DNA of 64,000 nt. Origin: Paracoccaceae bacterium (GTDB lineage Bacteria; Pseudomonadota; Alphaproteobacteria; Rhodobacterales; Rhodobacteraceae). The position numbers were made by a program, and so were the translations under genes. Below are positions 9,224 to 12,451 of the stretch, piece by piece; within the stretch, counting starts at the first letter, position 1, and the number at the start of each line of letters is the position of its first letter. The notes beneath the pieces are model-generated. The model was given only the letters and a program-made list of their open reading frames with translations, was not told the origin of the DNA and searched no databases. Where the stretch lies: contig JAHEAO010000010.1 of NCBI GenBank assembly GCA_024642725.1, positions 1 through 64,000 on the forward strand. Reading direction: 5' to 3'.

Positions 9224-9676
9224 ATGAGCGGAATCGATCATATCTCCAGACGAATATTGCAGGTGCTGGCCCGCGAGGGCCGGATCAGCAATATCGAACT
9301 GGCAGACCGGGTCGGCCTGTCGCCATCGGCCTGCCTGCGACGGGTGCAGGAGTTGGAGCGGTCCGGCGTGATTGCGGGCTACAGGGCGGTTCTGAACCCT
9401 GCCGCTCTGGGCGTCGGATTTGTGGCCTATGTGACAGTCGGCCTGTCGGAACATTCCAAACACGCGCAGGACAAGTTCGAAAAGTCCATTTCCCGATCGC
9501 CTGAAGTGCGTGAATGCCACAACATCACGGGCAGCGTTGAATACCTGTTGCGGGTCGAAGCCCGCGACTTGGCCGATTTCAAGCATTTCCATACGGAAGT
9601 CCTTGGCGCGCTGCCGCAGGTCAAGAGCATCACATCCTATGTCGTGATGGGATCTCCGAAGGATGAACGCGGCTAA
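9224..9676 (+). CDS. Lrp/AsnC family transcriptional regulator
   Basis: HTH IDHISRRILQVLAREGRISNIELADRVGLSPSACLRRVQELERSGVI plus an AsnC ligand domain. Divergent from lysE. Confidence 0.93.
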   Translation: MSGIDHISRRILQVLAREGRISNIELADRVGLSPSACLRRVQELERSGVIAGYRAVLNPAALGVGFVAYVTVGLSEHSKHAQDKFEKSISRSPEVRECHNITGSVEYLLRVEARDLADFKHFHTEVLGALPQVKSITSYVVMGSPKDERG

Positions 9677-10623
9677 CGCGCGTGGTGCAGGATGCGCCCG
9701 ATCGTGTTGAGCAGCAGTTGCGCGGCAAGAATCGCCGTGGTTCCGGTATGGTCATAGTCCGGCGCGACCTCGACGAGGTCGATGCCGACGATGCGCTGGC
9801 GCCGGGCGACGCCCGCGATCAGCTCCAGCACCTCGTAATAGGTGAACCCGCCGTGGCTGGGCGTGCCGGTGCCCGGCGCGATGGAGGGATCGAAGCCGTC
9901 GATGTCGATGGTCAGGTAGATGTCGGTCTTTTCCGGGATGCGCGCCAGCACCGCATCGGTTCCCAGCGTGCGAATCTGGCGGACTGACAGGATGTCTGAC
10001 CCCATCTTGCGGGCGTCGTCATAGCCTTCCTTGGCAGTTGACGAGACATTTCTGATGCCGAACTGCGAGAGGCCGGTGACGTAAGGCAATTCGGCGGCGC
10101 GGCGCATCGGGTTGCCGTGGCCGAAGCGCACGCCGTGGCGTTCGTCGACAAAGTCGAGATGGGCGTCGAATTGCAGGATGTGGATCGGGCCGTGTTCTGA
10201 AAAAGCGCGCACGCAGGGGATATTGATGGAGTGATCGCCGCCCAGCACGACAGGCAAAGCGCCGGATTTCAGAATCGCGCGGACGCCGGTCTCGATATTG
10301 GCGTGGCTTTTGATCGTGTCGGTATGGACGATATCGGCATCGCCGATGTCCACGATCCTGGTGCCGGCACCGAGATAGGTGGTGTCATCCTCGTGGTCGT
10401 AGGCGCCGGCATGACCAAAGGCGAAAAGCGTCGACGCCTCGCGGATCGCGCGCGGGCCGAAGCGGGCGCCGGGCCGCCACTGGGTGCCGAAATCAAACGG
10501 TGCCCCCAGAATCGCGACGTCGGCGTCGATTGCCGACCAGTCAGGCTGATAGGGGTACTTGCCGAATGTCGCGATGCCGACAAAGGGCAGGTCAAGGCGG
10601 CCGCTTTCATATCCATGGCTCAT
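9673..10623 (-). CDS. speB: agmatinase/ureohydrolase family protein
   Basis: Ureohydrolase motifs: GGDHSINIP, LQFDAHLDFVDERHG.RFGHGNPMRR, YLTIDIDGFDPSIAPGTGTPSHGG, GIDLVEVAPDYDHTGTTAILAAQ. Confidence 0.92.
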   Translation of the reverse strand: MSHGYESGRLDLPFVGIATFGKYPYQPDWSAIDADVAILGAPFDFGTQWRPGARFGPRAIREASTLFAFGHAGAYDHEDDTTYLGAGTRIVDIGDADIVHTDTIKSHANIETGVRAILKSGALPVVLGGDHSINIPCVRAFSEHGPIHILQFDAHLDFVDERHGVRFGHGNPMRRAAELPYVTGLSQFGIRNVSSTAKEGYDDARKMGSDILSVRQIRTLGTDAVLARIPEKTDIYLTIDIDGFDPSIAPGTGTPSHGGFTYYEVLELIAGVARRQRIVGIDLVEVAPDYDHTGTTAILAAQLLLNTIGRILHHAR

Positions 10624-10735
10624 GCCGGTGTCCTTCCCCATCCCGCATTAATTCATGCTGGCGTGACTTTGACGGGATTTGCAGGCCGGTCGCAATGGCG
10701 AATTGACGGAATCCGAAACAGGCCGCTGCGGGGAC

Positions 10736-10775
10736 AAAAAAACGGCGGTGCTCAGGGAGGGCGAGCACCGCCGTT
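10736..10775 (-). terminator. Rho-independent terminator formed by the last CcsR-like hairpin
   Basis: Perfect 13-bp stem aacggcggtgctc/gagcaccgccgtt with a 9-nt loop, followed on the minus strand by a run of seven T. Confidence 0.85.
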
Positions 10776-10891
10776 CTGGACACGGATACTTTGGGGGAGG
10801 ACCGAAGTATCCGTATTGTTGCGGCGACATCAGGGAGGAGGTCGATGCCGCCGCTCTTTACAGAAAGCTCAAGGGAGGAGAGAGCTGTCTG
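10736..10891 (-). ncRNA. CcsR1-4-like tandem sRNA hairpins (CCUCC-loop / 'cuckoo' type)
   Basis: Four consecutive stem-loops on the minus strand downstream of the DUF1127 gene. Stems at 10861-70/10882-91, 10821-31/10844-54, 10782-91/10805-14 and 10741-53/10763-75. Minus-strand loops are UCUCCUCCCUU, GACCUCCUCCCU, CGGUCCUCCCCCA and GCCCUCCCU. Confidence 0.88.
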
Positions 10892-10901
10892 ATCCGAATT
10901 C

Positions 10902-11117
10902 TTACTTGCCGAAAGCTGCTTCGCGGGCGATGTCGCCGATCATCGAGCGGTTAAGCCCGAGATCCGCCAGATCGCGGTTCGACAGCCGGCTGAGTTCGCG
11001 AACCGTTTCACGGTAAACGCGCTGTTGTGCATTGAAAGCAGACCAGTCCTTGGCGAATTTCGAGATACGCTCGAAAATGCTCGGGGCGATGCTGCGGGTT
11101 TCAGTTGCGAATGCCAT
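10902..11117 (-). CDS. DUF1127 domain-containing small protein (CcaF1-like)
   Basis: VYRETVRELSRLSNRDLADLGLNRSMIGDIAREAAFGK is the DUF1127 core; located directly upstream of the CcsR-like hairpins. Confidence 0.92.
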   Translation of the reverse strand: MAFATETRSIAPSIFERISKFAKDWSAFNAQQRVYRETVRELSRLSNRDLADLGLNRSMIGDIAREAAFGK

Positions 11118-11213
11118 TTTAGTGCCTCTTAGGTATCTGTTGTCTGGAGCTTCGTTCTCCGTTGACACCAAGATAGGTGAATGCTGCGGGTGCACAATAG
11201 GGCGCGTCGACAA

Positions 11214-11228
11214 TGCTGCTATGCAGCA
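11214..11228. promoter_or_regulatory. TGCTGC-TAT-GCAGCA palindrome (PhaR-like CTGCN3GCAG) upstream of the DUF1127 gene
   Basis: Direct reading of the sequence; 6-bp perfect arms with a 3-nt spacer. Confidence 0.5.
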
Positions 11229-11608
11229 AATGCATAAGTAAAACTGACCTAAAGTCAGGCAGTTAGATCAATTTCCGGGCAGAATGTTAGCGGTCACGGG
11301 AAAGGGCTGCTTTCGAATGTGGCACAAGGCCTATTCTCGCGGCGTTTTGTGAGAATCTGACCGGATCAGGGATTTCACTGGGTGGCTTGTGGGCCAGATA
11401 TGCGAGTCGAATCACGGTTCTGACCGACCGTTGGCGGCAATCCGTTTACCCGATCTGGCCCAGCAGGCGGCCGGTCCCGAAAAAAATCCGACTTTTTTGG
11501 GAATTCGCGGGAAACCATCTTCTGGTCAGTAAATTGTCTATATTTAGTAGATAACTTTCGGATCAATACAATTTGTCGCGCCTAAAAGCTTGTGGAACCC
11601 ACCAGATT

Positions 11609-11645: not shown

Positions 11646-11695
11646 GATGTCCCATATTTTTCTATTGATTTCCATGAATTCCCATGCCATCCCTA
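11646..11695. repeat. 10-bp-phased MraZ-box-like decamer repeats
   Basis: Minus-strand decamers in perfect 10-bp phase: TAGGGATGGC ATGGGAATTC ATGGAAATCA ATAGAAAAAT ATGGGACATC. Confidence 0.6.
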
Positions 11696-11862
11696 ATAGC
11701 ACGATGAGGACGGGCAAAACGGGGCGACCAAGACCCCAAACTCCCAAAGTCAGGTTTCATACAGGCACCCGCTTTCATCGAACCAAGAGATCCGGCGCGC
11801 GAGCGAGCAGACATCCCCCCAGGTGGCGCGCGCAGTCGGACACCCCAGAAATGGGACGAGGG

Positions 11863-11902
11863 CGGCGGGTTGATCAGTGGCAGCAGATCAATCCGCCGTT
11901 TC
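11863..11902 (+). terminator. hairpin upstream of mraZ, possible partial terminator/attenuator
   Basis: cggcgggttgatc (11863-75) pairs with gatcaatccgccg (11886-98): 13 bp with one G-U; loop agtggcagca; followed by the weak U-tract tttcc. Confidence 0.6.
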
Positions 11903-11947
11903 CATGTCTGGGGCCCGAAGGGGTAGGAAATAAGGAGCCGCGGGACA

Positions 11948-12451
11948 GTGGCGCGAAGGTTCAGAGGCGAAAGCCAACACAAGGTCGATGTGAAGGGCAG
12001 GGTGTCTATCCCGGCCCTGTTTCGCCGTGTGCTGGAGGCTGGCGACCCGGACTGGACCGATGGCCTGCGCCCGCAACTCGTCATCGTGTACGGCGATCAT
12101 CGCCGCAAATTCCTGGAATGCTTCACGATCGAGGCGATCGACGAGGTCGACGACAAGATCAGCAAGATGCCGCGCGGCACGATGGAACGCCGGATGCTGG
12201 AACGGCTGATCCACGGCCAGTCGCACCCGACCGAAGTCGATGGCGACGGCCGTTTGGTGCTGCCCCAAAAGCTGCGCGAGAAGATCGGCCTGGACGATGA
12301 GGCGTTTTTTATCGCCTCTGGCGACACGTTCCAGATCTGGAAGCCGGAGACCTACCAGTCCGAAGAAGCCGCGAAGACCGAGAAGTGGCTTGATGAACTG
12401 CCGGATGATTTCGACCCCCTCAGCCTGCTGGACAGGGTCGAAGGAGAATAG
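11948..12451 (+). CDS. mraZ: MraZ division/cell wall cluster transcriptional repressor
   Basis: GTG start after aaggag; FRGESQHKVDVKGRVSIPALFRRVLE and DGDGRLVLPQKLREKIGLDDEAFFIASGDTFQIW (two MraZ/AbrB-like repeats). Immediately upstream of rsmH. Confidence 0.95.
   Translation: MARRFRGESQHKVDVKGRVSIPALFRRVLEAGDPDWTDGLRPQLVIVYGDHRRKFLECFTIEAIDEVDDKISKMPRGTMERRMLERLIHGQSHPTEVDGDGRLVLPQKLREKIGLDDEAFFIASGDTFQIWKPETYQSEEAAKTEKWLDELPDDFDPLSLLDRVEGE

Follow-up and report, generated by a model that had tools for sequence, protein, structure and literature searches.

The window, by which we mean the whole 64,000-nucleotide stretch of DNA that was analysed, very probably carries an operon of the ccaF1-CcsR (CIN1) kind, encoding stress-induced small RNAs whose loops would pair with Shine-Dalgarno sequences. 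Judged from its sequence, the locus appears to be the Brevirhabdus version of the known Rhodobacter ccaF1-CcsR ('CIN1', cuckoo RNA) operon. The earlier note had proposed this identity, and the proposal is largely right: it is supported by significant sub-threshold matches to the ar14 and CcsR1 families, by a gene-plus-array arrangement found in nearly all relatives together with a position divergent from mraZ, and by loops that are conserved while their stems covary. The genus is probably Brevirhabdus, going by the closest named relative of the DUF1127 protein, a 'Brevirhabdus sp.' homologue with 62% identity; the homologue in the one Brevirhabdus genome that was compared is equally close, and Cereibacter and other relatives reach 44-53%. 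The features of the locus are collected in Table 1.

Table 1. Features of the DUF1127-hairpin locus and its surroundings, in window coordinates.
Feature	Position	Strand	Remarks
T run of intrinsic terminator	10736-10742	minus	seven T
Hairpin 4	10741-10775	minus	loop CCCUCCCU; 13-bp stem, doubles as terminator stem
Hairpin 3	10780-10816	minus	loop UCCUCCCCC
Hairpin 2	10821-10854	minus	loop ACCUCCUCCC; two G-U pairs, one adjoining the loop
Hairpin 1	10861-10891	minus	loop UCUCCUCCCUU; 9 pairs and an internal mismatch
DUF1127 gene, CcaF1-like	10902-11117	minus	71 codons and stop; Pfam PF06568, E 1.3e-12
Second promoter box	11170-11198	minus	ATTGTGCAnnnGCAGCA; RpoHI/RpoHII-like TTG (11197-11195) and TAT (11175-11173)
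Upstream dyad	11211-11236	minus	YATGCA-n-CTGCATrGCAGCATTG; hardly varies among 59 family loci with arrays
mraZ, first dcw cluster gene	11948-12451	plus	PF02381; divergent neighbour marking the syntenic position

The 71-codon DUF1127 gene is confirmed as first described, and the match of its product to PF06568 exceeds the curated cut-off. The array starts 10 nt past the stop codon and spans 10741-10891 on the minus strand. Folding bears out the four C/U-loop hairpins that had been proposed behind the gene; the minimum-energy fold contains all of them at -81 kcal/mol, compared with -43.3 +/- 4.0 kcal/mol for dinucleotide shuffles of the array (0/200 as low; z -9.4). When both strands of the window were scanned, no other place had four CUCC-loop hairpins in a row within 170 nt, and 3.84 Mb of dinucleotide-shuffled window yielded zero runs of four and zero runs of three. 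Hairpin detection was heuristic, and counts differ by one or two between scripts. The loop motif is CUCCUCCC in hairpin 1 and the full CCUCCUCCC in hairpin 2, followed by a shortened form in hairpin 3 and CCCUCCC in hairpin 4. That two of the four loops depart from the full motif counts against our reading.

Several details of the stems required correction. The 13-bp stem of hairpin 4 stands, while hairpin 1 reaches its nine pairs only with an internal mismatch; the G-U pair reported for hairpin 2 is present but is one of two. Seven T do close the array, but two of them pair within the last stem, leaving five unpaired. The statement that the stems differ almost completely was too strong, since hairpins 2 and 4 have a GGCGG core in common.

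We pooled 394 hairpins from a first set of 63 loci with at least one CCUCC-type hairpin, and CCUCCUCCC was present in 334 of them. Loop columns outside this anchor carry 1.2-1.7 bits, and columns eight or more positions away about 0.5 bits or below. As these hairpins had been chosen by complementarity, their complementarity was left out as evidence for covariation and the terminal hairpin was used instead. Aligned from its outer ends across 19 loci, mostly of different genera, the terminal hairpin has 99.6% of cells paired and both-sided changes at 6 of 12 pairs; its covariation score is 0.397, against 0.177 when shuffled and at most 0.151 with the partner slid. In the Brevirhabdus relative all four hairpins are present, their stems altered and their loops the same. 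In hairpin 3 of that genome, GGUCCUCCCCC is identical and one A-U pair of the stem has become G-C, and hairpin 2 shows compensatory stem changes in relatives. The earlier note had read covariation into a single G-U pair; one sequence cannot provide this, but the comparison of relatives does. Conserved stems with lost loops had been named as the refuting outcome, and the reverse was found.

These observations also bear on the reading of the array as a DNA-level or neutral repeat of the REP type that came to lie behind the gene by chance. Stems of neighbouring hairpins do have GGCGG cores in common and copy number varies widely, as such a repeat would lead one to expect. However, the loop motif is strand-specific, the covariation fits RNA pairs including G-U, and the arrays hold a fixed place behind one promoter and end in a terminator, with zero clusters in the shuffles. 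We strongly disfavour the REP-like reading, to which we give almost no credence.

Searched at gathering scores, Rfam returned nothing in the whole window; the matches to ar14 (RF02344) and CcsR1 (RF02791) surfaced in a permissive scan only. The ar14 alignment covers the model's full 123 positions with hairpins 2-4 and scores 57.6 bits (E 8.8e-10), 1.2 bits short of the gathering cut-off of 58.8. CcsR1 model positions 1-83 match hairpins 1 and 2 with 35.1 bits (E 8.6e-7), below a cut-off of 65.3. Because the array scores below both cut-offs, we do not file it as ar14 or CcsR1 itself. In the genome to which the window belongs, the array is the sole place found with ar14 (next best E 0.96). Weaker names on the array (ar7, Scr3202, sX13, Pseudomon-1, Xoo2 and FinP) were rejected as overlaps driven by the C/U loops or the terminator, far below cut-off.

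All 80 nearest named relatives carry arrays behind a DUF1127 gene, with 2-15 hairpins each, and mraZ adjoins 62 of these 80 operons. CcsR1 scores rise to 84-106 bits in Cereibacter johrii, C. changlensis, C. ovatus and Luteovulum azotoformans, all four with mraZ as neighbour; the comparison took in such Cereibacter and Luteovulum loci rather than R. sphaeroides itself. Since the mraZ-adjoining Cereibacter loci score strongly with CcsR1, the window locus can be taken to correspond by position to the ccaF1-CcsR operon of Rhodobacter. The operon is widespread and largely syntenic across its family, and the comparison identifies a probable sRNA operon of this kind in Brevirhabdus. Around the operon, an arginase-family gene (9673-10641, minus strand) lies between the array and an Lrp-type regulator, with no homologue within 3 kb in the 80 named relatives. 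On the other side, non-coding DNA before mraZ (11652-11914, plus strand) is nearly identical in the Brevirhabdus genome; it is probably an UpsM-type leader of the dcw cluster, as reported for Rhodobacteraceae (PMC5089854).

Work on R. sphaeroides (PMC10253847) describes ccaF1 (71 aa) and CcsR1-4 as sharing one transcript, which starts at an RpoHI/HII promoter and has a terminator at the 3' end, and the CcsR RNAs as processed by RNase E; the ccaF1-CcsR association is there named CIN1. Two reports present CcsR1-4 as RNAs that RNase E releases from a transcript induced by stress (PMC10253847; PMC8625941). With this locus of Rhodobacter (Cereibacter) sphaeroides (RSP_6037) the window shares a DUF1127 gene of 71 aa, a tandem array of CCUCC-loop hairpins immediately behind it, TTG/TAT elements of a putative RpoH-like promoter and a terminator at the end; as in Cereibacter relatives, mraZ is the divergent neighbour. 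It differs in hairpin number, with four (two units) where C. johrii has eight, and in the loops of hairpins 3 and 4, which depart from CCUCCUCCC. The terminator of C. johrii is separate and without CCUCC, whereas here the last CCUCC hairpin takes on that role. At the protein level, the Cereibacter DUF1127 homologues are less than 50% identical to that of the window.

The earlier note had equated the four hairpins with CcsR1-4, which is wrong: each CcsR is a two-hairpin unit, and the locus holds two. In a survey of 132 loci (1058 hairpins, from 2 to about 18 per array), linkers alternate in length, with medians of 6, 9 and 9 nt for hairpins 1-2, 3-4 and 5-6 and of 32.5, 32 and 19.5 nt for 2-3, 4-5 and 6-7. 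C. johrii has eight CCUCC hairpins besides its terminator, and the CcsR1 model holds two hairpins. Taken together, these make the window array two units, with a shortened 2-3 linker. Across the surveyed loci the repeat unit is the hairpin pair, and CcsR1-4 would fit four pairs. Free-standing two-hairpin CCUCC units also occur away from the promoter module, at two loci in one genome (L212 and L216 in G096) and one locus in another (L215 in G094); the G096 units have a T-rich end.

Upstream of the gene, the TTG and TAT elements are present and conserved across the family loci, and the dyad scores at least 12/15 in 60/60 loci with two or more hairpins. The same TTG/TAT pair is the RpoHI/HII signature reported for another R. 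sphaeroides DUF1127 gene (PMC10673084), and by analogy our operon would be under RpoH control. The window's own genome has one exact copy of the two-box module. Among 121 family genomes, roughly one for each genus, 55 have the exact pattern, all but one of them in a single copy; it is present in 0/188 genomes from other families of the class. From this distribution, the module seems to be family-specific and to stand before array operons.

VtlR/LsrB was considered as regulator of the dyad and rejected. The small DUF1127 genes of Brucella and Agrobacterium and their AbcR sRNAs resemble our locus in that one upstream regulator, there VtlR, governs both DUF1127-type genes and sRNAs of the anti-SD type, but the dyad misfits the published VtlR box, GCAT-N3-TG-N3-T (PMC7486931). 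According to PMC11975290, moreover, only Rhizobiales have LsrB/VtlR, which counts against it as the dyad's owner.

The module also allowed us to look at protein and array separately. Of 84 distinct module-bearing loci, 77 have both DUF1127 and an array, five have an array without DUF1127 (L189, L190, L191, L193 and L194), and two have DUF1127 without an array (L038 and L202). At the DUF1127-less loci the first hairpin follows 27-194 nt past the module, which leaves too little room for a gene of 70 aa. In one of these genomes (G049), array and DUF1127 lie on different contigs, each behind its own module copy. The genomes of the separated loci have two to six DUF1127 genes elsewhere, so help in trans is possible. 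A strict need for CcaF1 in cis is excluded at the five loci, though with paralogues present. A homologue is present in 104 of the 121 sampled family genomes, and the window's own genome has four DUF1127 genes, with no array behind the two others that could be placed.

These separations weigh against the idea that the array works only in cis on the DUF1127 mRNA (as a stabiliser, a terminator or an autoregulatory site bound by the DUF1127 protein) and gives rise to no trans-acting RNA. The array does sit in the 3' UTR and ends in a terminator, and CcaF1 is reported to bind RNA and alter CcsR levels (PMC10253847). However, promoter and array persist without DUF1127 at five loci and promoter and DUF1127 without array at two, stand-alone two-hairpin units have their own T-rich end in G096, and conservation lies in the loop and not the stem. 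We consider a pure cis element improbable. We are evenly divided over a broader proposal, namely that the conserved unit in Rhodobacteraceae is not the DUF1127-array pair but the dedicated promoter module, with its dyad for some regulator. Arrays and DUF1127 proteins would then be separable outputs, the arrays growing and shrinking by two-hairpin units, with protein and array split onto two promoter copies in at least one lineage. The separations, together with the single-copy module and its dyad, make it testable whether the DUF1127 protein has to be encoded in cis and which factors other than RpoH act on these RNAs.

Under the favoured reading as a ccaF1-CcsR operon, the RpoH-type promoter would start one transcript about 45 nt before the DUF1127 gene, ending at hairpin 4. 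By analogy with R. sphaeroides, RNase E probably cuts its 3' part into sRNAs of one hairpin pair each (hairpins 1 and 2, hairpins 3 and 4), perhaps with help from the DUF1127 protein; alternatively, a single four-hairpin RNA may remain uncut. The C/U-rich loops mimic the anti-Shine-Dalgarno end of 16S rRNA and would base-pair with mRNAs at the Shine-Dalgarno sequence, reducing translation during stress; the targets are probably genes for transport and metabolism. A parallel comes from ar14/NfeR1 of Sinorhizobium meliloti, which likewise presents three anti-SD loops on unlike stems; these act as redundant seeds and repress ntrB (PMC10746234). NfeR1 differs in that it stands alone as an sRNA and has a sigma70 promoter controlled by LsrB/NtrC, whereas here the hairpins follow a DUF1127 gene.

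The loops could instead serve as a sponge that captures some other RNA (for instance an sRNA whose seed is GGAGG) or a protein, rather than pairing with mRNA leaders. Many near-identical loops per transcript, up to the highest hairpin numbers in relatives, would fit titration. Yet NfeR1, whose loops are related, acts on the translation initiation region of ntrB to silence it (PMC10746234), and we think a sponge quite unlikely. Analogy with NfeR1 and CcsR1-4 makes mRNA repression at Shine-Dalgarno sequences the most likely function of the array. We also searched the window's own genome for GGGAGGAGR and found 27 other occurrences, nine of them before a plausible start (33% vs 16% for random positions). 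This enrichment is too weak for targets to be named, and the sites are weak leads. The starts that they precede belong to a periplasmic binding protein, a SoxA-type cytochrome, a short-chain dehydrogenase, an NMT1-type binding protein, TctB, a response regulator and malic enzyme.
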